IMG/VR virus record: IMGVR_UViG_3300037231_000117
Span: 1-55,474 of that record
DNA: 55,474 nucleotides
From: a virus
Direction: 5' to 3' (one strand)
Part shown: positions 4,059 through 36,200 of the stretch, piece by piece
Position numbering within the stretch: the stretch's first letter is position 1
Layout: the number at the start of each line of letters is the position of its first letter
Position numbers and translations under genes: made by a program
The notes under the pieces: generated by a model
Told to the model about the DNA's origin: nothing
Databases searched by the model: none
What the model saw: the letters and a program-made list of their open reading frames with translations, nothing else

Positions 4059-4211
4059 GTGCATTTTGGTGTTGCGGTTGGTGTGAACCGCACCACCGTC
4101 CGCTATTGGGGCTGTCCGCGGTCGGGTCGAAACGTCCAGCCATTTCCGGCCTGGGTGTCGCTGCTACTGGACGCGTGGGAACGCAATCCGGACCTGATAC
4201 CGCCGGCTTAA
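4059..4211 (+). CDS. Small helix-turn-helix protein, 50 aa (GTG start)
   Basis: GTG 4059 begins HFGVAVGVNRTTVRYWGCPR, then QPFPAWVSLLLDAWERNPDL and IPPA before TAA. This is a complete small helix-turn-helix protein of the type ending 'W-x-x-L-L-D-A-W-E-R-x-P-x-L-x-P-P'. It reads against the ParB-like gene, and the two genes share TTAA at 4208-4211, each using it as its TAA stop. The ribosome site is weak (GAGCG). The divergent partner starts at 4022, so the 36-bp gap between them is a possible control site. Confidence 0.55.
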   Translation: MHFGVAVGVNRTTVRYWGCPRSGRNVQPFPAWVSLLLDAWERNPDLIPPA

Positions 4212-4882
4212 GGCGCGAAACTATGGTGACACTCTGGACATTCCACCGTCTTCGTGGTCGTCCGCACCGGCGGCGTCGCCGGGGGCACCGGGTCATGATC
4301 CTGGAACAGCCCGGCCAGTTCACCCGCGTCGAAGCCGGTCAGACTGAGATCAAATCCCCCATCGCGCAAATCGCCCAACTCAAGCGCGAGCAGCTCCTCA
4401 TCCCACTCGCCCTCGATCGTCGATTTGTTGTCCCAGATGATGTAGGCGCGCCGCTGCGCCGGCTTCAGGTGGCCGATGTCGATCACCGGGCAAAAGATCA
4501 TCTTCAACTTGATCGCGGCCAGCCGCCGCCGGTGCCCGGCCAGGATGTTGTTCCGCTTGCCGGCGACCAGGATCGGGTTGGTCCAGCCGTTGGTCTCGAT
4601 CTGCACGGCCAGCGCGTCAACCGACTCGCGGGAGTGGAGGCGCGCGTTCCGTTCGTTCGGGATCAGCGAGTCGATGCGAGCGATACGATACTTCGGGAAC
4701 GCCGGCACGGCAGGGTCGCGCACGCGCGCACGCTCGCGAGAGGAAAATATCGCCGGATCGGCCGCGCCCCCCCCCGCGGCCGCAGCCGCCGCCGCCCCTA
4801 CGGACGTAGCGACGTTTGTCGTGACCTTGGGCTTGTTGCCACTTCCGGGCTTTCGCCCTCCGCTCTTGAAACCAGTTGCCAT
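4208..4882 (-). CDS. Orphan ParB/Srx-like nuclease-domain protein with C-terminal CPEC tail
   Basis: This is a 224-residue protein. The first 55 residues are low in complexity (GGRKPGSGNKPK, then an Ala run). A ParB N-terminal-type domain follows (about residues 65-140): IDSLIPNERNARLHS, VDALAVQIETNGWTNPILV, then AGHRRRLAAIKL with the G-H-R-R motif. The C-terminus ends VECPECHHSFAP, a half zinc-ribbon. In many phages this domain is fused to a DNA methyltransferase; here no methyltransferase follows, so the protein is an orphan or a truncated form. Its role could be DNA binding or nicking. It is downstream of the integrase and separated from it by 21 bases. Confidence 0.7.
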   Translation of the reverse strand: MATGFKSGGRKPGSGNKPKVTTNVATSVGAAAAAAAGGGAADPAIFSSRERARVRDPAVPAFPKYRIARIDSLIPNERNARLHSRESVDALAVQIETNGWTNPILVAGKRNNILAGHRRRLAAIKLKMIFCPVIDIGHLKPAQRRAYIIWDNKSTIEGEWDEELLALELGDLRDGGFDLSLTGFDAGELAGLFQDHDPVPPATPPVRTTTKTVECPECHHSFAP

Positions 4883-4903: not shown

Positions 4904-5794
4904 TTACGCAGTCAGATACCGCGCGCTACTGTCACCAGGCCGCGCGTGGGAATAGCGAGTCGTCGTTGTCAAACTGGCATGGCCGAGCGTCGTTTGAACG
5001 ACATGAACGGGCGCGCCGCGATCGAGCGCGTGCGAGGCGTGCGAATGGCGCAGCCAATGCGGGGATATCGATTCCGGCAGCTTTGCGCGCTTCGCGGCCG
5101 CCTTGACGATGCGATGCACCTGCATCGGCCCCAATCCGCCGGCTTTTTTTCGCGAGAGAAAAACCGGGCCGTCCGGCTGGAAAACGACAGGGCGCAGGGC
5201 GATGATGTGACGCCAAAGCGCAGACGGCAGCAGGATGACTCGCGTTTTGCCACCCTTGCCGAAAATCGTGATTTGCCCCGCGTCGTCGCGCGCAACCAGA
5301 TCGCGCCACCGCAGGCCACACGCCTCGGAAATCCGCAGGCCCGCGCCGTACAGCAGCCGGAGGATCACGGCGTTCCGCGGGTGACGTTCCAGCCGCAGCA
5401 TATGCTGTACGTCCGCTTCGGTCAGAATCCGCTCGGCCAGCACATCCTTAATGTGTGGGGTGTCGACCACGCCGCCGACATCAAACGGGATGTAGCCGAG
5501 CCGGTGCGCCAGGTGGAGCAACGACTTCATGGATGACAGCCGGCGAGCGATCGTCGCCGGCGCCAGGTGGACAAGCGTCGCGGCGAAATCCTGCATGTCG
5601 CGAACGGTGATGGCGGCCAACAGCTTGGTGCAGGTGTTCCGGAATAGACGGACATCGCGACCGTAGCCGAGCTGGGTACCACCCGATCGGTAGCGGCCGA
5701 GCCACAGCGCGATCATGTCCTCGTCGCTGGACGCCTGCTGGACCATGGCGGCGGCGGGGATGATCGCGATCTCGGAGCCGGTGATGACGGTCAT
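4904..5794 (-). CDS. int: Tyrosine-type integrase
   Basis: This 296-residue XerC/D-like recombinase would insert the phage chromosome into the host by strand exchange at an attachment site. The N-terminal core-binding (SAM-like) domain covers about residues 20-105. The catalytic domain follows with all expected residues: R154 in GLRISEACGLRW, a beta-2/3 lysine (K180 or K183 in GKGGKTR), H246 and R249 in HWLRHSHASHAL, H272 in TLGHASL, and the nucleophile Y281 in TTTTRYSHA. The length is normal and the start is preceded by GGGGA. No attP core can be identified from this sequence alone. Its presence supports a temperate lifestyle. Confidence 0.9.
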   Translation of the reverse strand: MTVITGSEIAIIPAAAMVQQASSDEDMIALWLGRYRSGGTQLGYGRDVRLFRNTCTKLLAAITVRDMQDFAATLVHLAPATIARRLSSMKSLLHLAHRLGYIPFDVGGVVDTPHIKDVLAERILTEADVQHMLRLERHPRNAVILRLLYGAGLRISEACGLRWRDLVARDDAGQITIFGKGGKTRVILLPSALWRHIIALRPVVFQPDGPVFLSRKKAGGLGPMQVHRIVKAAAKRAKLPESISPHWLRHSHASHALDRGAPVHVVQTTLGHASLTTTTRYSHARPGDSSARYLTA

Positions 5795-5861: not shown

Positions 5862-6605
5862 TCAGACAGCCTCGACCGCATCCTGATCGACGATGATGGG
5901 GCAGGGCCGGCCGAAGATAGACAACAGCACCCGTACCCGCTGGCCGTCGGACCAGTCACACGGCCCCTCGAACGAGGTCATCGGGCCGTCCATCATCCGA
6001 AGCAGCTTGCCAACCATCGAGTTCGGCGCATCGCCGGCCTCGTGAAAGCAGCCGTTGGCGTCGCACATGCCGCGGATTAGCTCGATGGCGCGCTCCGGCA
6101 TGGCGGTCGGAGCGTCAGGTGCCAGGCCAAGAATAGTGTCGATGCTCGGCATGTCCCGGATCTGCTGCCAGAAGTCGCTGATGCGAAACCGCGCAAAGAT
6201 ATAGGTCCGAAACAACGGCCCGACACCGGCCTCCTTGGCCGGAATGCGGGCGCCCTCGGCGTTGCGCCGGGCGCGTGTGGCCGCTTCCCATATCGTCGGC
6301 GCGAACACCTCAAAGCCGGCGGCACTGATCGCATCCGCCGCGTCCGACTCACTGGCGTACCGGGTGTGCGCGCAATACCACCGGCCGGCTTCGGGTGGGG
6401 GTAGAAAGACAATACGCTTTGGTCCGGAGTTTGGGCGCGCGCCGCCGCTGTTCGGACGCGGTCCCCCGCTGTTCGGACGCGCGCCGCCAGAATTCGGACG
6501 CGCACCACCGTGCTTCATCTTGCTGCTGCTGAACAATGTGGGTTTCCGGGATTGCTGCCGCACGGCGCGCTGATTCCAGATAGATGGAAATCGGCACCGC
6601 GGCAT
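5862..6605 (-). CDS. NusG/RfaH-like transcription elongation factor with RPNSG repeats
   Basis: This 247-residue protein has four GARPNSG repeats (residues 34-61). Next comes an NGN-like domain starting RWYCAHTRYASESDAADAIS and including VFAPTIWEAATR and PLFRTYIFARF. The C-terminal DGQRVRVLLSIFGRPCPIIV is the shape of a KOW domain. NusG-family proteins bind RNA polymerase and alter pausing or termination, so it may act as a phage antiterminator or host-transcription modifier. The repeats are basic and resemble AT-hook-like phage N-termini (G-A-R-P-G-S-G). The start ATG 6605 follows AGAGGT; an internal ATG (residue 30) is possible. The upstream 324 bp has no gene on this strand. Confidence 0.75.
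   Translation of the reverse strand: MPRCRFPSIWNQRAVRQQSRKPTLFSSSKMKHGGARPNSGGARPNSGGPRPNSGGARPNSGPKRIVFLPPPEAGRWYCAHTRYASESDAADAISAAGFEVFAPTIWEAATRARRNAEGARIPAKEAGVGPLFRTYIFARFRISDFWQQIRDMPSIDTILGLAPDAPTAMPERAIELIRGMCDANGCFHEAGDAPNSMVGKLLRMMDGPMTSFEGPCDWSDGQRVRVLLSIFGRPCPIIVDQDAVEAV
6423..6506. repeat. Four 21-bp tandem units encoding GARPNSG
   Basis: Four tandem near copies of a 21-bp unit (with one Ala-to-Pro change in the third) lie inside the NusG-like gene and keep its frame. The encoded segment is basic and flexible. Confidence 0.8.
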
Positions 6606-7355: not shown

Positions 7356-7556
7356 TTAAAACAGGTCGGAGATCTCGGGGGCGAGTGCGATCTGAGCTTC
7401 GATCATGCGGAGCACCGTGGCCTGTTCATCATTCGTTAACGGGCCATTGGTTTCCGACCAGGTGGCCAGCCGTTCGATACGGTCGGTCAGTTCGTCGAGG
7501 TCGTCACTGAGCATCCAGCGGGACGCGATTTCCTGGAAGCCTGGGCGCAGGTTCAT
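7356..7556 (-). CDS. Small helical protein, 66 aa, end of replication operon
   Basis: This starts MNLRPGFQEIASRWMLSDDL; its ATG overlaps the stop of the DnaA-domain-IV gene (ATGA), so it is translationally coupled. It is acidic and helical throughout (DELTDRIERLATWSE). It is the last gene of the leftward replication operon. No family was recognised; a replication accessory role is suggested by its operon only. Confidence 0.65.
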   Translation of the reverse strand: MNLRPGFQEIASRWMLSDDLDELTDRIERLATWSETNGPLTNDEQATVLRMIEAQIALAPEISDLF

Positions 7557-7870
7557 GTCGGCGCGTTCTCGCCGGCGCCGAAAAGCCGTGCCAGCTCGCG
7601 CACCTGAGCGCCGAACGCCGGATCGTCCTCCATGGCGCGCTCGATGTGCCTCACGGCATACATGACCGTGGAATGATCCCGATCGCCGAACGCTCGTCCA
7701 ATCGCCGGGTAGCTCAACGGAGTATAGTTCCTCGCCAGCCACATCCCGGTGTGCCTGGCCAGCACAACCCGCGCCTGGCGTCGGTCTGAGCGGACATCGA
7801 GCGCGGTGACTCCGCACACCGAGGCGACGGTGTGAATGATGACTGCCACGCTGGGATGGTCGTGGCTCAT
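7553..7870 (-). CDS. Stand-alone DnaA domain IV (DnaA-box-binding) protein
   Basis: This 105-residue protein consists of the C-terminal DNA-binding domain of DnaA with a short leader. Residues 20-80 carry the features: VTALDVRSDRRQARVVLARH, GMWLARNYTPLSYPAIGRAF, then the signature GDRDHSTVMYAVRHIE (family form G-x-R-D-H-S-T-V). It has no AAA+ ATPase domain. It would bind DnaA-box-like sites and may act with the initiator at 8740-10284, whose C-terminus looks like DnaA domain I. It starts at ATG 7870 in an ATGA overlap with the gene before it. It could alternatively be a regulator that competes with host DnaA. Confidence 0.85.
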   Translation of the reverse strand: MSHDHPSVAVIIHTVASVCGVTALDVRSDRRQARVVLARHTGMWLARNYTPLSYPAIGRAFGDRDHSTVMYAVRHIERAMEDDPAFGAQVRELARLFGAGENAPT

Positions 7871-8082
7871 GCGCCGGCCAGTGCGCAATCGAGGCAGCAA
7901 TACACCGCCGGGCCTTTGTAGAGCTCTCCGCAGTGATCGCATGGGCGCTCGGGAAAACCGGCGTCGCAATAGGCCCTGCGAGCGGCTTCGACCGACGCCA
8001 GAATCACCGGCGATTCCAGCGCTCGACCATCGACCGTGTCGGCGCGGGCAGAATCAGGTGCGGAAAGGGGGCTGTCGCTCAT
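7867..8082 (-). CDS. Small zinc-ribbon protein, 71 aa
   Basis: This starts MSDSPLSAPDSARADTVDGR at ATG 8082, which overlaps the previous stop (ATGA), and itself ends in an ATGA overlap with the next gene. The C-terminus has CDHCGELYKGPAVYCCLDCA, a C-x2-C...C-C-x2-C pattern typical of a small zinc ribbon. The N-terminal 30 residues are polar. It is part of the leftward replication operon; a nucleic-acid or protein-contact role is likely but not shown. Confidence 0.65.
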   Translation of the reverse strand: MSDSPLSAPDSARADTVDGRALESPVILASVEAARRAYCDAGFPERPCDHCGELYKGPAVYCCLDCALAGA

Positions 8083-8480
8083 GCGGTTGCCAACTGGAGA
8101 ACGTTGATCGCCTTCTGGCCGGGACAGATATCCTCGATCCACACCTTCGACGACTTTGCGATCGGCTGCATACCGAACGCCTCCAGGATCATGTCCACCG
8201 CCGCCGGGTGGGGCAGCTTGCCGGGCCTATCGACGCTGATGCTGATGTGCCGGCAAATACCCGGCGGCGGCGCGTTGGGCTGCACTTCGATGCTGTAGGT
8301 CGCGACATAGCCAATTGGTATGTCCACGCTCTGCATGTTCATCGCATCGCGAAAAGCCTCTATGTCCGCGGCGGCGACGGCGAGCAGGTCGGCCGCGGTC
8401 ATCGGCTCTCTGGCTTCGACCACAGCTCGGAGTTCCGCGATCAGCGCCCGTTCATCCTCGCCAATGATTAGCACTGTCAT
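8079..8480 (-). CDS. Hypothetical replication-operon protein, 133 aa
   Basis: This starts MTVLIIGEDERALIAELRAV; its ATG overlaps the previous stop by one base (TGATG). The N-terminal half is a helical Ala/Glu-rich segment (ADLLAVAAADIEAFRDAMNM) and the second half looks like beta strands (IPIGYVATYSIEVQPNAPPP). No family was recognised. Tight coupling on both sides shows it belongs to the replication operon. Confidence 0.65.
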   Translation of the reverse strand: MTVLIIGEDERALIAELRAVVEAREPMTAADLLAVAAADIEAFRDAMNMQSVDIPIGYVATYSIEVQPNAPPPGICRHISISVDRPGKLPHPAAVDMILEAFGMQPIAKSSKVWIEDICPGQKAINVLQLATA

Positions 8481-8740
8481 CAGCCAGCTTCTCCGACATC
8501 CACCCAGCGCACGCCGTTGGTTACTGGCATCCGCAAGGTGCCGCTCTCCAACCGCGCCAGCACGATCCGCAGCATCGGCACCAGGTCGATCGCAGCGGCA
8601 TTGCTATAGAGCGCGAGCCGCGTACTGCCGGCCGCCGGGTCGAACGCGATCACCACTACCCGTTCGTTCGGCTCGACCTGGCCCAGCGTGTCGATCAGCG
8701 TCGCCGCAGCGGTCGTCAGGTGAGGGAACGTATCGCCCAT
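8480..8740 (-). CDS. Hypothetical replication-operon protein, 86 aa
   Basis: This starts MGDTFPHLTTAAATLIDTLG, overlapping the initiator stop by one base (TAATG). It is a small alpha/beta-looking protein (NERVVVIAFDPAAGSTRLAL). It has no cysteines or membrane helix. No family was recognised. Its position directly after the initiator gene suggests a helper in replication, as with helicase-loader genes in other phages, but no loader motif is visible. Confidence 0.6.
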   Translation of the reverse strand: MGDTFPHLTTAAATLIDTLGQVEPNERVVVIAFDPAAGSTRLALYSNAAAIDLVPMLRIVLARLESGTLRMPVTNGVRWVDVGEAG

Positions 8741-10284
8741 TATCCGGTAACCGGTGCATCGGAAACTGCCGGCATCAACCGAAACTCGACGTCGTCGATC
8801 CCAAACGTTGGACCCAGCAACATCTTTCGCAGATAGCTGTAGCCGCCTTCACGTGCCTTATCCCGCTGGTACGCGCTTGGCAGCGCCATGATGGCCACAC
8901 CCTCATCGACGCCGGCGAAAGCCATCTCGCGCAGCCACATCCGGTATGATTCTTCTCCGACCAGGGTCTTTAGTGCCGCGCGCGCGTGCTGCCACTTCCT
9001 CAGCAGATCCGGGGAGGAGGCGAGCCACCCCTCGGTCGCGACAACCCGTTCCTCTTCGGCGGCAAGCCTGGCCTCCAGCGCCTGCTGCTTGGCTACAAGC
9101 GCCGGCGAGACGGGCGCGGTGGCAGCGACACGCTTGGCGGGGATATCGCCACGCCGGCGCTCCCGGGCTTCGCGCACCGAATTGCTGAAAAAGGCCAGGC
9201 CGTTCGGCACACTTCCCATCAAGTTCGCCATCCTGATCTGGACGACGGCGCGAATCGTGTCCGGAGTCTCCCCATCGTCAAGCCATCCCTGAACTGCCCC
9301 GAGGTCCTTGGCGTGAGGTGGACGGCCCGGCGACACGATCGCCTTCAGCTCCGCAGTGAGGCTGGCGACGGCAGGACTTTCTCCGGACACATCGGCGGGA
9401 CTTTCTCCGGACACTTCGGGACTTTCTCCGGACAAACCAGAGTGACTTTCTCCGGACAACGGCGCGCGGCTCTCAGTTGCTGGTACTGATGCTAAGTGAT
9501 GGATATCCCTTGTACTGGCATCAGTACCAGCCGCGCGGGCGATCCGCTCGCTGTCCGGAGAAAGTCGCTCGTCGTTGTCCGGAGAAAGTCCCGAAGTGTC
9601 CGGAGAAAGTCCCCCTGATGTGTCCGGAGAAAGTCCACTTTCTCCGGACAACGAGAGGTCTCCCATGACCACGTCATACATCGACGGATTTTGCGCGGGC
9701 CGCGTTCTTTTCGTCCGACGCGCGGCGGCCGTCTGGTCCCGGAAGCCCCACCGGTGCGGCATCGCGACGCCCCCGGCCGCCAGGTCCACCAGCATGGAGT
9801 GGCGGAACAGCTTATCGAGCTGGGCGCCTTCAATACCCTCGAACACCGACAGAAACTCATCTCGCGAGTGATATACGTCACCAGGTTGGCCGAACGTTAG
9901 GTTGACGCCATCGTCGGCGAGAGTGCGGATCTCGATCAGCGCCTCGACCCAAAATTCCCGGGTCTCCGCATCCAACAGCCCCTTGAACGCCCGCACGTTG
10001 CGGATCGCGGCGAAGGCGCGGCGCAGCATGTTGCCCTCGGACATGCGCTTGGGCGGCGCTGGCTCCCGATCAGGCGCGGCTTCGGGTTGCGCCTCGACCG
10101 CAGCAAGCGGGCGAACCAGCTTCATCATCCGGTACACTTCGGACCTCATCATGCCGGCCCGCAAGGCGATCGTGCTGACGGACACCCCATGATCGGCGAG
10201 CGTTATGTACAGCCGACCGCGTGCGAGTGTTTCAGGGTCGGCGCCCGCCGGGCGTCCCGTGCGTCCTGTTGCATTGCTGGACAT
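8740..10284 (-). CDS. Replication initiator with DnaA-domain-I-like C-terminus; carries the iteron array
   Basis: This 514-residue protein begins MSSNATGRTGRPAGADPETL at ATG 10284, with a strong GGGAG ribosome site; longer readings to 10464 lack one. A helix-turn-helix lies near residues 25-60 (VSVSTIALRAGMMRSEVYRM). A helical domain follows (about 75-180). Residues 211-303 are low in complexity (LSGES, LSPD repeats), encoded by the iterons. The C-terminal 75 residues (KWQHARAALKTLVGEESYRM, then WLREM and ALPSAYQRDKA) match the layout of DnaA domain I. It probably binds its own gene, opens the origin and recruits host helicase, as lambda O does. It heads a six-gene coupled operon. Confidence 0.75.
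   Translation of the reverse strand: MSSNATGRTGRPAGADPETLARGRLYITLADHGVSVSTIALRAGMMRSEVYRMMKLVRPLAAVEAQPEAAPDREPAPPKRMSEGNMLRRAFAAIRNVRAFKGLLDAETREFWVEALIEIRTLADDGVNLTFGQPGDVYHSRDEFLSVFEGIEGAQLDKLFRHSMLVDLAAGGVAMPHRWGFRDQTAAARRTKRTRPAQNPSMYDVVMGDLSLSGESGLSPDTSGGLSPDTSGLSPDNDERLSPDSERIARAAGTDASTRDIHHLASVPATESRAPLSGESHSGLSGESPEVSGESPADVSGESPAVASLTAELKAIVSPGRPPHAKDLGAVQGWLDDGETPDTIRAVVQIRMANLMGSVPNGLAFFSNSVREARERRRGDIPAKRVAATAPVSPALVAKQQALEARLAAEEERVVATEGWLASSPDLLRKWQHARAALKTLVGEESYRMWLREMAFAGVDEGVAIMALPSAYQRDKAREGGYSYLRKMLLGPTFGIDDVEFRLMPAVSDAPVTG
9375..9650. other. Probable replication origin: mirrored iteron array with central hairpin
   Basis: The iteron GACTTTCTCCGGACA occurs on the plus strand at 9375, 9399, 9420 and 9444, and inverted at 9552, 9576, 9597 and 9621. 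A ninth plus copy (14 bp) at 9637-9650 forms a near-continuous palindrome with the eighth. The spacings are 24, 21, 24 in each arm. Perfect 14-bp arms (GCTGGTACTGATGC) at 9479-9492 and 9518-9531 form a central hairpin. Every pair is mirrored about the same point, 9505. The array lies inside the initiator gene and keeps its frame. Iterons inside an initiator gene are the known layout of the lambda O-type origin. Confidence 0.8.
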
Positions 10285-12239: not shown

Positions 12240-12472
12240 TGGCCGTCGAACCACTCCCGGCCGGCGTCCGCGTGCATCTTCTGGCGATCCTGGCTCTCGG
12301 CTACCCGGCGGGCGCCCGGCAGACCCAGCTCGGCAACGCGCCGGACGCCGTGATCGCCTGGCAGGCACAGAGCATGCTCGACGATTACGCCGCCTATGCC
12401 AACGACAACACCGACCCCAGCCCGGACCCCAGCGACCGCTGGATGTCCATTCAAACAGGAGTTGCAGCGTAA
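12239..12472 (+). CDS. Hypothetical early protein, 77 aa
   Basis: This starts MAVEPLPAGVRVHLLAILAL, with its ATG overlapping the previous stop (TGATG), and ends where the exonuclease gene begins (TAATG). The first half looks helical (GVRVHLLAILALGYPAGARQ) and the second half is polar and acidic. It lies directly before the recombination exonuclease, so a helper role is possible, but no family was recognised. Confidence 0.65.
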   Translation: MAVEPLPAGVRVHLLAILALGYPAGARQTQLGNAPDAVIAWQAQSMLDDYAAYANDNTDPSPDPSDRWMSIQTGVAA

Positions 12473-13152
12473 TGGCCATTATTCATGACGTGATTCAAGG
12501 CTCGCCGGAATGGCTGGCCTTGCGCCTCGGGATCCCCACAGCGAGCGCATTCCACAAGGTCATCACTGCCGTCAAAGGCGACCTGTCCAAGTCCGCTCGC
12601 AAATATGCACAGGCCCTCGTCGCCGAGACACTGTTGGGTCATTCACTGGAAAGCCAGCCCAGCACCTGGGCGATGCAGCGCGGCAAGGACTTGGAGCCGT
12701 TGGCGCGGGCGGCATACGCCCGCGAGAACAACGTCGAAGTCCGCCAGGTCGGGTTCGTCACCACCAACGACGGGCATGTCGGCGCCTCGCCAGACGGTTT
12801 GATCGTCGGCGCGCGGCGTGGCGTCGAAATTAAATGCCTTCTCGACGATTCTCATTTCGCCGCCTTCATTGACGGTCCCGGTGACGACTTCAAACAGCAG
12901 GTGCAAGGCAATCTCGGGGTGTGCGAGTTGGCCGAATGGGATCTCTACCTCTGGCATCCGAACCCGAATCTGAAGCCGATCACGATCCGCACCCTTCGCG
13001 ATGAGCCATACATCACCAAGATGGGCGTCGCCCTCGCCGAATTCCTGGTGATGCGCAACGAGATGCTGGCGACCGCGAAAGCGGCGGGCTGGGGAGCGGT
13101 GCCCGGCTACACGCCGCCAGCGACGTTCGGCGCGATGAGGATCGCCGCGTAA
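12472..13152 (+). CDS. YqaJ-type recombination exonuclease
   Basis: This 226-residue protein matches the lambda-exonuclease-like (YqaJ) family, which degrades one strand of double-stranded DNA ends for single-strand annealing. Visible motifs are QGSPEWLALRLGIPTASAF (residues 9-27), a conserved Glu in GKDLEPLAR (E75), and the metal-binding core GASPDGLIVGARRGVEIKC, with D108, E119 and K121. The Q-Q-V-Q-G-N-L segment that follows is also typical. Its length is normal. The next gene is probably its recombination partner. It belongs to the rightward early operon. Confidence 0.9.
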   Translation: MAIIHDVIQGSPEWLALRLGIPTASAFHKVITAVKGDLSKSARKYAQALVAETLLGHSLESQPSTWAMQRGKDLEPLARAAYARENNVEVRQVGFVTTNDGHVGASPDGLIVGARRGVEIKCLLDDSHFAAFIDGPGDDFKQQVQGNLGVCELAEWDLYLWHPNPNLKPITIRTLRDEPYITKMGVALAEFLVMRNEMLATAKAAGWGAVPGYTPPATFGAMRIAA

Positions 13153-24203: not shown

Positions 24204-27200
24204 CTATTGTGGGCGCGTGCCGAAAACGTTCTCTGCGGCTTTGTTCCGCATGGCGTTGTATTTCATGATCTCAAGGCGCTTTTGTTCCGCGCCCAGGGTC
24301 GGGCTTTCACCGACGCGTTTGATCTGCCGGTTCGCCATCTGCTCGACTTCGGTCACTTTATCGACCAGTTCGTGCTTGGCGATCTGATCCTTGTTCGCCG
24401 CCGAGAATGCGCGGGCGTCGTCAACCCGTCCGCGTGCGATGAGGTCGAGATAGGTGGCGTAGGTCCGGCTGATCCCCTCGGCCTGCTGATAAAGCATGTC
24501 GATGTAGCGGCTCTGCGGGGTGGTTGATGTCGAAATCATGCCCCCCGTCGCTTGGTTCCACAGATCGGTGTTCGGCCGCACCGGCTCGACTGGCGCCACG
24601 CCGCGGAACGCCGCCTGTGCCTGATCGGCGCCGCGCACCGTCAGGTCGGCGAGATTGACGACGTGGGATCCCAACCAGCCGAAATAGCCGTTCACCAGGT
24701 AGTCGAGTTGGATCGGCGCCAGGAACTGTGCCTGCGGTCCACCGATTGCCCGCGCCGCCGCATTGCCCGCCGAACTGGCCGCCCGAGCGAACAGGGTCGT
24801 GGACGGCGTGTACCGTTCTTCCGAGCGCAGCCGGTCCATGCCTTTGCCGATAATCGGCGCGCCGGTACCGGACTCGTTTTCCAAAAGGTCCAGCACCGGG
24901 CGCACGATCTGCGGCACCGGGCTTAGCGACATATTGGTCCCGAGGATCTGCAGTACGGAGTTGGCGAACCGGCGCGGAGTCATCTCGTTGCGGCCAAAAA
25001 TGGCCTCGACCCCGTTGGCCGCGATCCGCGACATCGCCGCGATTTCAAAGCCCATCGGGATGCGGAACTGAGTGTTGCCGAACTTGAACCAGAAATTTGC
25101 GTCCCGGTCGTACTCCGTGCGCTTTTTGTAGTCTTCGTCGTTGGCGTAGATCGCGTCGAGAGCCAGCGTCAGCAGCGACGTAGCGCCGAGCACGATGGCA
25201 ACCCGCTTGGTGGCGGACGCTGCAACCCTGGCCCCGACCGCGACGGCGATGTTGCGATCCTGGTTCGCAGCCGCCCGCCCGACCTTGTACAGCCCCTGTG
25301 CCCATGCGTTCATAAACGGCACCGTCTGGGTAAGCACCCGCGCGATTGCGCCGGCACCCTTGAGGGTGAAGTCCTCCAGGTCGCGGGCGGCAAAAGCGGC
25401 TTGGTCGTGCGGGACACCATCGGCGATCAGCTTGTGATAGAGCGCGAACCGCTGGACATCCTCGCTCTGCGCACTGACTTCCTTGTATGCGCGGGCGATC
25501 TGGGAAACCCGATGCCAGAACGCGTTGATCGTGTCTGGCCGGTCCAGCATCGTGTCGAGATCGGTTCTCCGGCCGCCGGTGTCATGGCCCGATCCCAGCC
25601 GCATCGTGCCACCGCCGGCGATGGCGTCCGCCGCCTCGTTGCCCAGATTCAGCCTGTGTAGCTGCTGCCCGGCTATAGCCCGCGCCACGTTCTTCAACGC
25701 TCCGGGGAGGTCGCCCATGCCATAGCCGCTTATGACGTTTTTTGCGACGTTGTAGGACAGCGGCGCCGTGGCGATGGCCTGCTCGGCGTCGCGGATGCTG
25801 ACCCGCAGCATGAAGCGGGGATCAGCAGTGACGCCTTGCGTCAGGATGGTTTTGAACTTGGTCGCCGAATCCATGACGGGGTTGCGAAATCCGGAAAAAT
25901 CCAGTGCCGAGATCGCTGTGAACAGCAGCGGGTCGTGGACCTCGAAGAACTGCTTCTGGCCAGTGTTCATCACCCAAACGGTCGCTCGCTTTTCCGCCTT
26001 GGACTGGTAGGCGATGTCCCGCGCCGACAGCTCGCGCACGGCGCCGTTGGTGACGCCGGTGTCGAGGACGCCGGCGGATGCACGGTTGCGGAGCGACGCG
26101 TCGATCATGTGCGACCAGTTCTTGATCGCGTTGTCCCAGAGGTCGTTGTTCAGTCTTTCCGTGCCGCCCTTCAGCGTCTTGAACGCATTCTGCTTGACGA
26201 ACCCTGACGTCACGCTTGGGCCGGCGAAATGCCCGTCTGCCTCCGCGACGCGGTAGAACGGCACGTAGAACGGATTGGAGAACAGCGTACTGACCCGATC
26301 GCCATCGAGCAGGCCCGACTGCACGGCGAGATCGAGTACGTTCTTGTTGAACCCATCGAGCTTGCGGAGTGAATCGAGGTAGACCGCTTCGCGCGAGCGG
26401 GTAATCGAGCCATCCGGCAGGTGATAATCGAACGGCACCTGACCTTGGTTGGTCGCCTTGATCGTGTCGATATCGTCTTGCGACCATAGATTCTCCCGAT
26501 CTTCCGCGGTCAGCCGTTCGGCGCGGTTCGCCGCGACCCACCAGATGAAGCGATCTTGCTCGCCGTGTAGCGGCCGCACCAGGGAGTGCTCGACGCCGCC
26601 GTTACGCTCGTCCATCGCGTACGTGCTGCCATTGAACCGCAGCGTGCCATCGGTCAGGAACATCTCGGTCGCGCCGGCGGTCGTGTTGGCGTTGCGCAGC
26701 GCCATGTAGCCGGCCGGGTCGTCGGCCTTGACGCCGATATAGGGGTCAAGCCACGCGCGCACCGTGCGCCGGCCGAGGTCGTTGGTCGCGGCGGCGAGGC
26801 GTTCGCGCCAGGTCGGCGTGACGACCACGCGGCCGACGTTGCGATAGGCTGCGACCTGGTCTGGCGTCCAACGCTCGGTTTCCCGCTCGTCGCGGACGGC
26901 GACTTGCTGGCGTGGGGAGAACAGCGGCAGGCCCTGCGTCTGCACCGCTTCGCGGAGCTGGGGCGTGATGTCGAAGGAGTGGACGGATTGCCGGGTCTCC
27001 GGTTTGGCGTTCTCGGTAGACTCCCACCCGCTCGCATTTTGGACGGCTGGATTGGTGATCTCGCTCTGCCCGACTTTGGCGCCGAACTTGCTGACCAGCT
27101 TCTGGACCTCGGACGGCAGTTGCTTGTCGTAGAAGCCGCGCATGCCTTCGCCGCCGACTTTGAGATCAAGGCCCGTTAGCTCGCCAGTCGCATCGCCCTT

Positions 27201-30200
27201 GTAGCGAGTATAAATGTTCTCGCCGTTCTCAATCTTCTGGGCGATTTCCTTTCCGACTAGATCGGCCACTCGCCCAATCGAAATTCCATCTTCGTTGATG
27301 AGAGAGTTGCGGCCCTTCGACGCCACGATGTTGTACTTGCCGTCGTCTCGTTTTGTGTAGCCGATCCGATCAATCTGCTTGGACAGGTCATACCGATCGG
27401 CCTGTGCATCGCCGGGTGTCCACGCTACGCGATCGAAGCCATGATCCACCGCGTATTGCGTCATCCGCTTCATCGCGAGCATCGGCCATGTCGTTTTGAA
27501 CGGCGCGTCTGGGACGCCACTCGGAGTGTCGTAGCCCTGCCGACGTCCAGCCTGGTGCCAGTCTGATTGGATCTCCTCGATATGCAGCACCTTGGCGCCG
27601 TCCGGTGCGGTGCGCTCGGCAAAGCGCGTGTGCGCCACGACGTTCGGTTCGTCCCAGTGGGATGAACGGTAGGCCGTTTGCTCTCCGGTCATTACGGTCC
27701 GACCGTCAGCAATTCGCAGAGCCTCTTGATGGATGCGATCTGCTTCCGCTGTATTTCCATCCTCCATAGCATCATGCTCAGCGGCCTGTAGTGCTTGAAG
27801 ACGCGCCCCGATTCGTTCGTCGGCTGTCGCCGGAAGCGTCATCAGCATCTCGCGGTAGTTCTGACCGCCCGGCAGCGTGTATTGGCCGAACTTAGTCTTG
27901 GTATATTCCGACAAATACGGGTTCGGTTGGCGCGAAAGCTCGTTTAAGAGCCGGCCCATTTCGTCATCTTCGACCGGCGTCAGTCCGCGCCTTTCTCCCC
28001 CAAACCTTCGCGCACTTTCGTCGCGGTCATTAAGCTCCTGAAACCGATCCCGCTTGGCAGCGACGTCCGGCGCCTCGATCGGAGCGCCCCTTACGACGTC
28101 GCGCATGTCGAGCCGGTTGGCGCGTAGATAGTCCAGCACTTCGCCCTTGGTGACAGATTTCGGCTGCTTGCCGAGCCAGTCATCAAGCCCGGTCCACGCG
28201 CGTTCCTCGGGCTTCACGCCGGCCATGTTCCTGATCGTGGCGAGCCACTGGCCCGGTGTGGCCTTCTCCTGTTTGATGCCCTCTACCGCCCGCGTCAGCG
28301 CAGAGAACAGCGGCGTGCTGCCTTCCTCGCGGTCTTCCTGGCGGCGCGGCGAAAACTGCACACCGCCCTCCAGCGACGTGACCGGCCGCGTCTTGATGAT
28401 AGCCTCGATCGCGGTGGCGGCGGCCGTCGGCTCGGTCGGAACGAAAAACCGGGTCCGGCTGGCGATCCGCTCGCTGAATACCCCCGACCGCGCCAACTCA
28501 TCGCCGTAGCGGTAATCCGGACCCACCAGTTCGATGCGCGGTTCGCCAGCGACCAGAGAGCGCTTGATGGTCCAATCGTTCGCCAGCCGCGCGGTTGCGC
28601 CATTCAGCACCTGCGTCGCGATCTCGCCCGGCGACCCCGTCACCTTGACACCCTCGGCGCCGAGGCTTTTGAGCGTGGCATCGACACGCGAGGCCGGCAC
28701 GACGCGGCCCAACATCCGCTCGCCCTGGTCGGTCTGGAGCCGGAAAATCTTCGGGTTGCCGCCAAGCCGGTCCCAGATCGGCAGCACGGCGCCGGTGATG
28801 ATGTGCAAGCTGCTGTTGCGGAATTCGGGCGTCGCCGCGACCTGGTTGTCCCATAGCGGCTTGGCGTCTGCCGGCGTCAACCGTCTCCAGTTGTCGCGAT
28901 CGACCTTTTCGCGGTCCAGAAACTGATAGTCGGTCGGCGAGGTCAGCCGCGCCTGGGGGATGATCCGCCCATCCGCGTCGGTGTAATTGCCGGCCGAGGT
29001 CACCGCGAACACGCGCCCGCTTTGGACGTTCTGGATGAAGGTGTCCGGCTTCATGCCGTTGGTCTTGTTGCGCCCGGCCAACGTCTCGGCGAACCCGACC
29101 GGCTCATTCCGGTTCTGTGCGTTCAGGTGGACATGCTTGGTCTCGGCGCCCGAGCGCGGGTCGGTATAGACCGTCTGCTCGCTCAGTTTGGTGATCTTGT
29201 CCGCCTTGTAAGTCTCGACGCCGGTATCCAGCGTGCCGGCGGCGGACGCGCGGGCAATCGCCAGGTCCATGCGGTCACTGAACGCCTGGAAAACCCCGTT
29301 CTGATGATCGACCTTCAGCGACAGCACGCGGTTGAGGAACTGCGACATTTCCGGCAGCGGGGAAACGAGCGCGCCGTTATCATCGCGCATCTTCAAGCCC
29401 ATGCTCTTTTCGAGATCGTCTATCGAGACGCCCTCGACCTGGCCCATGGTCACGTCCTTGAAGAACTGGATCAGTCCGTCCCTGGCCTCGGTGCTTTCGA
29501 GGTTGTCCCGCATCCCGAACATGCCCTGGTCGGCCGCCCGGCGCTCGCCCTTGGTCAGCGCGCCCAACTGCGCCAGGCGCCGCGCGATCGAGGATATGAA
29601 CCGCTTCTGGCCTTGGAGGTCGGTGGTCACAAGATGGAAGATCGGCGCCGACGCCTGGTTGGTACGGTGCGTGCGGCCGAAGCCCTGGACTGCCTTGTCG
29701 GCCCGCCAGCCGCCTTGCACGAGGTAGTGCGACCGGCGCGCATCCTGACTGCCCGAACCGTTCTCTGCGTGGTAGCTGCGCCCGGTGCCGCCAGCCTCGG
29801 AGAACACCAGTATCGGCTTCTTGCCTGCCTGGAAGCTGCTGGCATCGGCGACGTTGGCGCCCGCGCCGCGCTGCTCGACCATCGTCTTGAGCTGCCCGCT
29901 TTCGTCCACCTGACGAACGACCCGCTGCTTGCGTCCTGTCACCTCGGCGACTTTGTCGGAACCAAAGTGATTGAGCAGCATTTCCAACGGACCATCGGGC
30001 ACGCGCAGGCTGCCGATCTGGTCAAGCAGGCGTTCCCGTCCCGCGACGGCCGCTTTGTTGATCACCGCCTCTCCGTTGCTGTCTGTCGCCGGACGCGACC
30101 GGAGGTTGCCGTTGTCATCGACATATTCCTCCATCTGCTGCACGGGATAGGCTTTCTCGACCAACTGCATGAGCTGGTCGCGCGGCGTCATATCGAGGTC

Positions 30201-33200
30201 CTCGATGTCCCCGTCGCCTGACGCCCGCGCCTTCTCCAACGCGCGCTCTTGCGCCGCCTCCATGGTGTTGACCAACTGCAACACTGCCTGGCGCCCGGCC
30301 TTCAGGTCTGCCTCAACCCCACGGATGACCGACGGCATCTGCATCGAGGTGATGATCTGGTTGAAAAACCGCTGATGGCCGCCCCAAAAGGCGGACATGA
30401 CGGCGGCTTTCGCCCGTGGGTTTTTCGTCTTGCCGTCCTCGGTTATGCCGGTTGCTTCGAGCGCCGCGTTGAAGTTCCGAAGCACCAACTGCCAGCCTTC
30501 GGCCAGCTTGTCGTATGTGTCCCGCTGATCAGCACTGAGGACGTGTTCGACCCGATCGTAATCCACGCCGTCATAGGACAGGTTGCGGGCGATGTAGTGC
30601 CCGAGCGCCTTCATGTCGCGGGCGACGAGTTCCATCCCGGCGATGCCGCCGCTGGACACCTGGCCGATGAAGTCATCCCGGTTCGCAAAGGCAGTCCCTT
30701 CGCCCCACAGGCCCAATCGGGTCATATACGCGAGGTTGGAAACTTCGGTGGCCCCCGTCGCCGACACATAGACCACGCGGGCATTCGGCAATTCGTCCTG
30801 AAGCCGCATGCCTGCTAAGGCTTTTTGCGCCGCTTTCTTCACGCCGCGAGTGCCCTTCGTATCAACGGAATTACCCATGTTGTGGGCCTCATCGAAGGCG
30901 ATCACGCCGTCGAAGTCTTTGCCCACCCATTTGATGATCTGATCGACGCGCGTTTGTCCGGCCGCACCCGGGGTAAGCGAGCCGCGCCTGGTCGGGTCGC
31001 CGTTCTCTTTCCAAAGGTGGGCGTCGCCGATGGTTTCGGTTGTGCCGTCTGCCTTCTCAATTGCCCAGGCGGGGTACTTCTCTTTTGTTGGACCGCTTTG
31101 GATCGTCCCGGTGTCGGTCTTTGTCGGGTCGTTAGCGTCAGTGTGCCATGTGACGCGGGAGCCAACCTTGAAACCACCGGTGGGCGCGGTCTTTTCCTCC
31201 GACTTCAGCGTGTCGTAACTGGTGAACAGGATGCCCTTGTCAGCCTTGATCGTGTCGCCCGGCTTGAGCTTGCCGTGGTCGATGATGTCCGTCGCCGGTT
31301 GCCCCATGCCGTTCCAATCCCGTCGGGCATCGTTGACCAGCGCCCGTTTCTCGGACACCCAGACGGCTTTGGTGCGGCCGTTCTTGAAGTTGTCGAGGAC
31401 TGTGCCGGCGATCTCGCGGCCCTTGCCGACGCCGGTACCGTCGCCGATTAGAAACCCGCGCCGCCGGCCATCGGCCATAACGTCGCTGTGCGCGTGCCCG
31501 GCATAGACGATCGCCTCAAGCTGGGCATCCGACAGCGCGCCGGACTTGACCAGCGCGATCGGGATGCGCGGCTTGTAGCCGGTGACCGGCGGCATGACCG
31601 TCGCCATGGCGGCGGACTGCACCAGTTCGCCCGGGTGCGGCCTCGCGCCGGCGATCTGCACGCGCTGGGGTTTGTAGGCCTCATAGACGGCTTCGCTGAC
31701 GGCTTGGTTGTCCGGTGCGGAAATGGCGTTCTCTGTCGCCAGGACCGCCTCGGGCGCCGGCGTCAGTCCGGGATCGTCTCGCTCTCCGCTACCATCAGGT
31801 CGTACGCCGTCTCCACCGCTATCGTTGCGGCCTCCGCCGGCGTCGCCGCCCGGTCCTCCAGTTGCGACGTGAGGCTCTCCTCCTGCTCGTCCCTGTCCAG
31901 GTTCGGATTGGACAGGAACCACTCCGTAGCCCGCATCGCCTGGTTCGGTCCCGACCCCAGCAGGGCGTTCACCGCGGACTCCAGGTTCGCGCGTTCCGGC
32001 TGGCTCGCTGACACCGGCGGCGATATCTCCACCACCCCCTTCTCCAGCCCCCACGCCGCCAGTTGGGCGATGTAGCTCACTGCCGGGTCCGGCGACGCCT
32101 TCGCCTCCCGCAGCCACTTCAGGGCCGCCTGGTTGATCGGCCACTGGTTCGACGGTGCTTCGCTCATCCCTTACACCCTGGAGTCGATCGATAACGTCGG
32201 CCGCATCGTGCGCCTGGCCGGTAACCAACGGCCTGCCGCTCGGCGGGTTCTTGTCAATTACCAACAATCGCGTCGGAAAGCTTGTGCCATATTTCGTGTA
32301 GATGTCGCGATCGACGCCGATGTTGGCGCGAACGTCGTATTCGGCGCCGATCTTTGCCCACCAGTCGCGAAAAGCCTTACCGGTTCCCTGCCGGCCGGTA
32401 CCTACGGCCGGGGTGCCTTCTGGCTTCATGCCGTCGCCGACGATCGCCACCAGCCGGCCGCCTGGCTCTAGCCGGGCCAAAGCCGCCTCGATGTGCTTGG
32501 CGCCCTCATCGAGCACCATGCGGCCACCCATGCGTTCGGCGGCGCGGCTGAATGGCGGGTTCATCACCACCACGGTCGGCCGCACGTCCGCCGGCAGGAT
32601 GTTGTGCAGTTGGGCCGCGTCCTCGCCAGCGACGCGCGTGGGGTGCAGTGCGGCGATCATGCCGCGGCGCTTGTCGCTCAATTCGTTGACCGTCGTCTCG
32701 CGCACGCCGGCGTTCATGGCATGGACGATCAGGCCGCCGACACCGGCGGACGGTTCCAGCACGTGATCGTCCGGCCGCAGGTTGGCGACCCAATTTGCCG
32801 CGAAGGCGTAATCGGGCGGCGTCGAGAACTGCTGGTAAGCGTCCTTTTCGCCGGCGCGGACGGTCTGCGTCGGCAGATTGTCCTTCAGCGCGGCCAGCTC
32901 GCGGGCGGCGGCTTCGGCCTGCGGAGCGTCAACCGCCGGATTGAAGCGTTCCGGATGGCGCTGGATGAAGCGGTTTACGCCGAGTTCAAGCGCGTCATAG
33001 AGCCGATCGCGGGTGAAGGCGCCGGACGCCAGCGTGCCGCCATAGGTGTTTTCCGCCAGCGCTTGGAGTTCCCGCGACGACAGCGGCGAAACGCCCTCCG
33101 CCACAGGCTGCTCCAGGCGGGACGCGATACCTTCGGCCAGAGCGTGGTCGCGATCCGCCGTGCGGGCGTCCGGCGCTTCCGGGATCGGCGCGGGGTTCGA

Positions 33201-36200
33201 CGGCGGTGCTGGTACCAGCGAGTCCGAAGCGGGGGCACCGGCCTCTACCGGTAGCCTGTACTCGGGTTCGCGCCCCTCGAACGTCGGATGCCACTCTGCG
33301 ACCTGGTATTCGGGGCGGTTGGTGCGATCGACCGTGATCTCTCGCGAGCCTGGCCGAATGCCGACCGGCTCGGTGGCGCGCACGCCGTTCTCGACGTAGG
33401 ACCGCACCCCACGCTGATCTTCATAAAGCGTCTGACCGATGTGGTTCTTGCCGATCTCGGTCCGGCCGTCCGGTGCGACGACGGGCGTCGCGTTCGTTCC
33501 AGCCTGGCGCAGCGCCGTGCGGGTGTCGCGCGCCATCTTCTCCCACGTCCAGCCGGCCGCGCGCGGATCGACGCCGGCCTTCGCGACCAGCGCCGCACGC
33601 TGATCGTTCGGCATGGCGTTCCACCATCCGGGCGAGTCCGGCGGCACCGTGCCGGGCGGCTGGATGTGCGTTGTCTTGCCGGTTTCCAGGCTGGTGAGGA
33701 TCAGGCCCGGATGCTCGGTCGGCGGTCTGCCCAGGTTTACAACCTGGTCAGCCTTCGTGGACTCAACCTGAGTCTGATCCGACAGCGCCTCGGCCGTCGC
33801 ACCGAGTTCGTTCCGCACCTTCGCCATCTCCGGCGTGTCGGCCGCCGGGTGCGTGACCGCGTCGAGTTTTTGACGCACGTCATCGAGCCGCGCCTTCGTG
33901 GGCGCCGGCAGCTTCGTTTCGTCGCCCGCGACCGGCCGCACGATCGCCGCCTCGGTCTGCGTCAGCAGCTTGGCCTGCGGTGTGGCCGCAGCCTTTGCGT
34001 CACGCTCCGCCGCCAACTGATCGAGCCAGCGGCGCAATTTCAGCACGACCGCCCGCGTGGCATCTTGGGCTTCGGGCGATCCCGCCGTCGGTATGACCGG
34101 GTTTACAACCTGGTCTGCCACAACCCGATCCCGCTCCGCCCGGTCTCGCATCTGCCCCAGCGCGGCCTGTTCGCGCTCAACCGGCGTGCCGAACCGCGCG
34201 GCATACATCTGCGCCAGGGTGTCGTGGATTTCGCCGATGTTCGTCACCCAATTCTGCGACCTTGTCCCGGAATCGCCGAAGATTCCGCGCACCGTCTCCA
34301 TCGCCGATTTCAGGCCGTCGATCAGGTTGCCAAGCACATCGCCGGCGACGCTGTTGCCGAACCGCTGCTGGATGGCGTCCACCACGCGCGGCAGGAACGA
34401 TTGGAACTTCGGCGCCTCGCCGCCGATATCCGATCCCAGCTCGTTTATCAGGTGCGCCTGGACCGCGGCGGCGTGGGCGGTGTCGCCTTCAGGACCGGCG
34501 CCGAAGCCTGCGCGCGCCGGCGCGGTCGAGCCGAATGTTGCCTGCGCGTAACGCGTACCCGCAGGGGTGATGCCGGCCGCGATCTGCTGATTGAGCAACT
34601 GGCCAAGATCGGTGCCGTCGGGCAGCGTCGTGGTCTGGAGAACGTGGGTAAACTCGTGCCCGGCCACCTGCGCGACATTGCGGGCCGGGTCGCTGCTCAG
34701 AAAGATCGTGTTCGGCTGGCTCGGGTCCATCGCGCCGTCAAACGGGATCGCGCCGTCGTCCTTGTAGAACACGACATCGACGCCAGCCTGTCCGTAGTGA
34801 GCGCGCAGCGCGTCCGCGGTTTCGGTGGAAATAGCCGGCTCGGCGCCAGGTGCGGGCGGCTCCGCCGATGGGGTCCACACCTCGATCGGATGCGTGATCT
34901 CCGTACCCGAGGCATCGGTCGTGCGGAAATGGTAGCCGCCGTCCGGCGCCTGTTCCACGGTGCCGGCACCGGTGTTGTCGAACAGCTTGAGCAGTGCGGC
35001 CTGCTGCAAGTCGGCACTGTCGCCCGTTGCCAGGTTCCCGGCCTCGGCATTGACGTCGATCGGCGCCCCCTCCGCGGGAGCGGACACAGCCTGTCTCGCC
35101 GTGTCGATGGCGGTGTCAACGTCCGGCGCATTGAGCACGTCCGCGACGGCCGGACGCGGCTGCACGTTCGGACGCCCCGGCATGGCCCGCCCGGCCAGCC
35201 TGCCGGCGCCGCCCAACACGGCCGCCGCGCCAGGCAGCAACGCGCCGGCGACGAACTGTAGGCCGAGGTCTTTACCGACGCCCTCGCCGATGTCCTGGTC
35301 CGGTTTGTAGGTCGCCTTGGCGATGACGTTGTCGGCCACGGCCTGCAACTGGCTGAAGGCGGTGAGGGTGGCACCGGACTTCGCCATATCGGCGAGCGTG
35401 GTCAGGAACTGGCCCCGCGCGGCACCCGGAATGCTGGCTGCCAACTCGATCGCCTGGTGGATCGGGACGGTCATCAGGCCGCCATCGACTAAGCCGCGGA
35501 ACAGCCCTGCGGTCGCTGCGTCTTCGTCTGTCGCTCCGGCTTGCTTGGCCTCATCGTAGCCCGCGCCGTAGCCCTGGACCCCCGCGAGGCCGATGACCGC
35601 TGCCGGGCCGCCGGCGACGCCCGCGCCGATGTAAGTCAGCAGGCCGCCGGCGAGATTGACGGCTTTGACGGACAGCCGCTGTTTTTCCTCATCCGTCATC
35701 GGGAAGGCTGCATTGCCGTAGTCGGTGACGGCTTGACCGGCGCCGCTGACGGAGCCGCCGACGTTCTTGACGGCCTGTCCTGCCTGTCCGAGTCCGGTGT
35801 CTTGCGGCTGCACCGCAACCTCGCCCTCGATCCTGGCCCTGATCTTGGCCCGCGTGTCCGCGTCGGAAGCGGCATACGCTTGACCAAACTCGAAGTCGGC
35901 GGCGGCCGGACTGGCTACGCCACCGGCTGTTGGCGGCTGGATGTGTTGTCCGCCGTCGATGCGGTCCATCAGACCAAGCTGACCGCGCAGCACCGCATCG
36001 GAGTTCTGTGCGGCGGCCTGCAAGGCGGTGCCAGCGCCGGTCACCATCTCGCCACCGGCTTTGACCAGTCCGCCGGCGATATCGGTCGGTTGGAGCGCAA
36101 TCGCCTTGCCGATGCCCCCGAGGGTGGACGACGGCGGCGTCGTGTCAGGCGACGCTGGCTGGACGGCAAGATGATCGATGATCTCGTTGGGCAGGTAGCC

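Follow-up and report, generated by a model that had tools for sequence, protein, structure and literature searches.

A putative phage replication initiator with a DnaA domain I-like tail and a mirror-symmetric iteron array within its gene, encoded together with a stand-alone DnaA domain IV

How does a phage begin replication when parts of DnaA are found on two of its genes and the AAA+ domain on neither? The question is raised by IMG/VR virus record IMGVR_UViG_3300037231_000117, which has 55,474 bases (referred to here as the window, i.e. the whole stretch of DNA that was analysed) with 127-base direct terminal repeats, and is a complete-looking temperate phage genome. A sequence-only reading of this DNA had proposed that a putative replication initiator (8740–10284) ends in the layout of DnaA domain I, that a separate 105-residue protein (7553–7870) is DnaA domain IV, and that DnaA functions are thus split over two phage genes. 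Both open reading frames (ORFs) are exactly as described, both are on the minus strand, and no AAA+ family matches either the initiator or the 105-residue protein. With a probability of roughly 0.6, we interpret the 514-residue protein as a lambda O-like initiator that uses its DnaA domain I-like module to call in the host DnaB helicase. The 105-residue protein is more likely to target host sites (oriC, the dnaA promoter), or to serve as a regulator, than to work at the phage origin.

The C-terminal module of the initiator (residues 429–501, coordinates 8782–9000, minus strand) is recognized both by Pfam and by a profile of our own. Pfam DnaA_N (PF11638) matches residues 431–475 with an E-value of 3.1e-5; the annotated protein scores 24.0 bits, just below the gathering score of 24.6, whereas a six-frame search gives 28.1 bits, above the gathering score, with an E-value of 9.1e-8. 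The second profile, derived from the DnaA_N segments of further proteins that bear this domain without being DnaA, scores 22.2 bits on residues 429–501, whereas 1000 shuffles of the initiator reach at most 5.3 bits and 5416 ORFs in 94 other viral loci at most 9.8. These matches confirm, at the level of sequence, that the C-terminus carries a DnaA domain I-like module. We aligned the tail by hand to Escherichia coli DnaA domain I (sequence checked against 2E0G) and read the residues by eye; Trp6 is kept as tryptophan, the M-W motif is kept, and Phe46 is replaced by tyrosine. The best sequence match of the tail is to a prophage protein (loci L103/L112), with 34% identity across 73 residues; the DnaA proteins compared are less close.

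In E. coli, DnaA engages DnaB primarily through its domain I, by way of Glu21 and Phe46 (PMC6127211). The phage genome contains zero matches to the DnaB_C family and zero to the IstB/DnaC-like ATPase family over its whole length, and the phage should therefore depend on the host helicase. The genes immediately downstream of the initiator have no family match, and hence no P or DnaC-type loader is recognized there.

The iteron array mentioned in the sequence-only reading is real and more regular than was stated. Within the initiator coding sequence (9375–9650) there are eight exact copies of the 15-mer GACTTTCTCCGGACA and a ninth copy that differs at one base (14/15), where 1.3 matches with three or fewer mismatches are expected in the whole window. 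Four iterons at 9375, 9399, 9420, and 9444 (plus strand, spacing 24-21-24) make up the left arm of the probable origin (9374–9461), and four inverted iterons at 9552, 9576, 9597, and 9621 (minus strand, spacing 24-21-24) make up the right arm (9549–9636), with the ninth iteron following at 9636–9650 (plus strand). The right arm is an exact mirror of the left about base 9505, and the two are complementary at 80 of 88 positions, such that 9374–9636 forms a 263-bp hyphenated inverted repeat within coding sequence. Nested inside it and sharing its centre at 9505 is an exact 14-bp inverted repeat (9479–9492 / 9518–9531), a possible unwinding or hairpin element; as a single strand the region 9479–9531 folds far better than shuffles (z = -5.2), and outside the array region no two 14-mers up to 300 bases apart form an exact inverted pair. 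The spacings are all multiples of three and the iterons consequently lie in the same codon frame, encoding (V/L)SGES in one arm and LSPD in the other. This array is likely to be the phage replication origin, and its position within the gene suggests that the 514-residue protein binds the iterons. The iteron sequence also occurs in other viruses (61 contigs), although with one copy in each and no array, consistent with chance.

The 105-residue protein is clearly a stand-alone DnaA domain IV by its sequence, as had been suggested. Bac_DnaA_C (PF08299) matches residues 10–76 as the sole domain (E-value 4.5e-24, 84.7 bits against a cut-off of 31.5), and the protein also matches DnaA structures in the PDB (1J1V, E-value 9e-11). 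The GDRDHSTV motif is present and the core box-reading motif is kept (the SDRR basic loop, P, and D-R-D-H-S-T-V), and we therefore regard the product as a predicted DNA-binding protein of the DnaA-box type. In a tree it falls outside the well-supported alphaproteobacterial DnaA clade, on a long branch that the tree does not place more closely. The earlier proposal that this protein marks DnaA-box sites on the phage is unlikely, because a search of the phage genome for the consensus DnaA box found none where 0.8 are expected; there are two sites with one mismatch (3.7 expected) and no repeated DnaA-box-like site. Titration of host DnaA, also proposed, is doubtful mechanistically because DnaA molecules meet through domains I and III and the 105-residue protein has neither; it could compete for boxes instead.

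The two genes belong to a run of six minus-strand genes with overlapping stop and start codons, which are thus probably made from one operon. The initiator gene is first, with an ATG start and GGGAG upstream, and is followed by an 86-residue ORF of no family (8480–8740) that has a TAATG overlap with the initiator stop, a translationally coupled 133-residue ORF whose function is not assigned to a family (8079–8480), and a coupled 71-residue cysteine-rich ORF (CDHC...CCLDC; 7867–8082). The domain IV gene is fifth, with an ATGA overlap with the preceding gene, and a 66-residue ORF (7356–7556) is the last coupled gene.

In the mechanism that we propose, the 514-residue protein would be a theta-type initiator of the lambda O plan whose N-terminal part binds the iterons within its own gene, and the DNA would open at the inverted repeat (9479–9531) between the two mirrored groups of four. 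The DnaA domain I-like tail, on a flexible linker, would be the first part to touch host DnaB, and, with the two arms facing opposite ways, each could bring one helicase to give bidirectional forks, much as the two halves of oriC each bind one DnaB-DnaC complex (PMC6127211). As the tail itself would contact host DnaB, the phage would not require a loader gene of the DnaC or P kind. The domain IV protein from the same operon would have its targets in the host (oriC, the dnaA promoter) or would be a regulator.

Several observations weigh against this interpretation. The N-terminal half of the initiator matches no DNA-binding family above noise (HTH_IclR, E-value 0.05), and the whole protein has no homologue in phages, plasmids, IMG/VR, or genome contigs, such that conservation tests nothing. 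Single-sequence AlphaFold prediction of residues 405–514 gave the helices only, at low confidence (predicted local distance difference test score 66), and no confident domain I fold. Glu21 of E. coli DnaA aligns with a serine in the tail and is not conserved, DnaB loading in E. coli also relies on another contact, made by DnaA domain III (PMC6127211), a domain absent here, and direct contact between domain I and the helicase has been demonstrated for E. coli only (PMC5448010). The central spacer of the array is just moderately AT-rich, the best 40 bp being 53% AT. A winged helix of the DUF1376 type was not recognized in the N-terminal half, the profile scoring under shuffles and hhalign giving a probability of 0.1; a PF07120 search of the N-terminus found no match, the initiator has no Pfam or PHROG match to O / Phage_rep_O, and an AlphaFold prediction of residues 75–215 from the single sequence was of low confidence.

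DnaA_N-type domains are found outside DnaA in other replicons. Searches of 289 alphaproteobacterial genomes identified 26 non-DnaA ORFs with such a domain in 14 genomes (two of the 26 matches are only just above an E-value of 0.001), nearly always near the C-terminus and without a Walker A or domain IV motif. The N-termini examined are initiator-like, including DUF1376 (L103, L115), a weak RepC-like match (L114), and a relative of phage and plasmid DnaD-type replication proteins (L105). Some of these ORFs adjoin terminase, GemA, antirepressor, or methylase genes, i.e. they are in a prophage setting, and in two loci (L107, L101) there are iteron-like repeats within the DnaA_N gene. Orientia mobile elements carry DnaA_N genes (PMC10732058), and a Rickettsia plasmid 'DnaA-like' gene, whose product may share the phage architecture, supports shuttle vectors together with parA (PMC3244465, PMC9004397). 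The joining of an initiator N-terminus to DnaA_N is thus a swap that recurs in prophages and Rickettsiales-type elements. One alphaproteobacterial initiator-like protein (L106, 2023–2562, minus strand) has two tandem C-terminal DnaA_N domains.

Stand-alone domain IV genes are also present in other phages. The phage collection contains 40 records that match domain IV. In all of the 16 IMG/VR loci and four phage records examined (20 in total), it is a stand-alone ORF without AAA+. A DUF1376 initiator lies within ~1.2 kb of the domain IV gene in six of the 20, and in three further records (L006, L017, L022) we judge the adjoining protein to be initiator-like; in L017 there are repeats in both orientations within the adjacent initiator gene. 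None of the 20 contains DnaA_N, nor do any of 13 further virus records fetched with the L100 and L103 prophage loci, and the present phage is the only one among 34 virus records with both DnaA_N and a stand-alone domain IV. Conversely, in seven genomes with extra DnaA_N matches domain IV is found only in the chromosomal DnaA (7/7). As each occurs without the other (7/7 genomes; 20/20 phage records), the two modules travel independently and their co-occurrence here is unusual. A literature search found nothing on stand-alone phage DnaA domain IV, PRK06030, or inverted phage iterons, with most subscription journals falling outside the search. Adjoining the domain IV and initiator genes of two of these loci (L010, 11338–11925; L009, 11183–11650) are related proteins sharing ECK(Y/F)LPTYGE, which could be candidate helicase loaders; no relative of these was noticed in the present phage.

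These distributions bear on what the two proteins might do other than as we propose. A split DnaA, with the two proteins cooperating at the phage origin, would account for their encoding in one coupled operon and for the presence of both of DnaA's end domains across the pair, but it is quite improbable given that each part is found elsewhere without the other, that the iteron array and its surroundings are free of DnaA boxes, that the initiator C-terminus is nearest to those of other mobile-element initiators, and that the domain IV protein lies outside the alphaproteobacterial DnaA clade. What survives of the earlier claim is that domain I-like and domain IV proteins are encoded by separate genes of one operon; the notion of one DnaA function divided between partners is not supported, as the parts occur independently. 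Origin of both genes from one cut DnaA is disfavoured for these same reasons of independence, tail affinity, and tree position. An unlikely alternative concerns the partner of the tail. Helices 2 and 3 of domain I serve DiaA, HobA, SirA, and DnaB alike as a docking face (PMC5448010), and with the Glu21 equivalent lost the tail might bind host DnaA domain I or a DiaA-like factor, recruiting or trapping host DnaA and not DnaB. However, no phage helicase or loader is detectable and DnaB must be brought somehow, and host DnaA has no evident role at an origin lacking DnaA boxes.

Within our preferred interpretation of the initiator as a DnaB-recruiting protein there are two tentative and about equally likely roles for the domain IV protein. 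It may be a host-takeover factor that binds to the DnaA boxes of the host oriC and dnaA promoter and blocks host DnaA and replication, leaving the box-free phage origin unaffected. Retention of the core box-reading motif, the lack of consensus boxes in the phage, and the recurrence of stand-alone domain IV as a phage gene are all consistent with this, and YfdR offers a precedent for a phage protein directed against DnaA, although it is domain I that it binds (PMC4776307); on the other hand, domain IV alone binds without oligomerization and may be a weak competitor, and the gene sits in a replication operon. The latter location, for a helix-turn-helix DNA-binding protein encoded with the initiator, fits with a transcription or copy-number regulator that binds a diverged phage site, and the frequent adjacency to an initiator in other phages suggests a shared local target, although no repeated DnaA-box-like site is present in the window. 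A bolder combination, which we consider improbable, is that the symmetric origin aims two sets of DnaA domain I tails in opposite directions and loads two host DnaB hexamers directly, with neither AAA+ nor a loader gene, and that meanwhile the separate domain IV occupies the host oriC boxes and shuts off host initiation.

Elsewhere in the genome there are genes for a tyrosine integrase (4904–5794), a YqaJ/RecE-type exonuclease (12472–13152), a lysozyme, a portal, a major head protein, and a terminase, together with ParB-like and NusG-like proteins. The ParB-like protein (4208–4882, minus strand) has relatives with 42–48% identity near the domain IV gene in four other loci (L006, L009, L017, L021), which suggests that the two genes form a loosely conserved neighbourhood. 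The NusG-family protein (5862–6605, minus strand; PF02357, E-value 2e-12) has an N-terminal (G)GARPNSG repeat, and there is a weak relative of it near the domain IV gene in L010. An ORF of 4046 residues (24204–36344, minus strand) probably encodes a giant virion protein, and Bcep22-like podoviruses have giant proteins of this kind. The segment 52495–53109 is of low complexity with strong GC skew and is open on both strands, the minus frames encoding GVEGVEGG or collagen-like GRRG repeats and the plus frame LDTHAALDAL repeats.

The closest parallel in plan is with lambda and Shiga toxin (Stx) phages, whose origins are placed midway through the initiator gene; as with their O proteins, the iterons of the present phage are inside the initiator's coding region, between the presumed N-terminal DNA-binding and C-terminal helicase-recruiting parts (PMC7466680). 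The phage initiator differs from O in having no PHROG match, a DnaA_N C-terminus, and no P-like loader that we could find, and whereas lambda and Stx origins have one iteron series beside an AT-rich tract, here there are two mirrored groups and no strongly AT-rich tract. The mirrored array within coding sequence offers a clean natural design for asking if two opposed initiator clusters load two helicases.

With the DnaA_N-tailed initiators of Rickettsiales-type elements and prophage loci (L100, L103/L112, L113, L115, L116) the present protein shares a C-terminal DnaA_N behind an initiator part, with no AAA+ and no domain IV. Their N-terminal halves, in contrast, are DUF1376, RepC-like, or DnaD-like, no mirrored iteron array was seen there, and those of their genomes that were checked have no stand-alone domain IV. 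Together they suggest that initiators of mobile elements use DnaA domain I as an interchangeable tail for recruiting the helicase. The 105-residue protein similarly resembles the stand-alone domain IV proteins of Bradyrhizobium ppBeUSDA76-2, Rhizobium RHph_N28_2, Caudoviricetes ctOK67, and the 16 IMG/VR loci, with a single Bac_DnaA_C, a motif of the G-x-RDH[ST]T type, and often a winged-helix initiator alongside, but it is short, lacks an N-terminal extension, and alone among them comes from a phage that has DnaA_N. A separate domain IV is thus a recurring phage gene that may affect host replication.

Chromosomal DnaA likewise has domain I and domain IV modules, and its oriC also has two halves (PMC6127211). 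The phage departs from it in having no AAA+ domain III, in carrying the modules on two proteins, and in having iterons unrelated to DnaA boxes; it is a compact case in which the tail would have to do its work with no AAA+ domain, although E. coli DnaA requires that domain as well for loading. Since every borrowed piece also turns up in other mobile elements, the system is an unusual combination of known parts, with an exactly symmetric array in the coding region, and not a new kind of machine.

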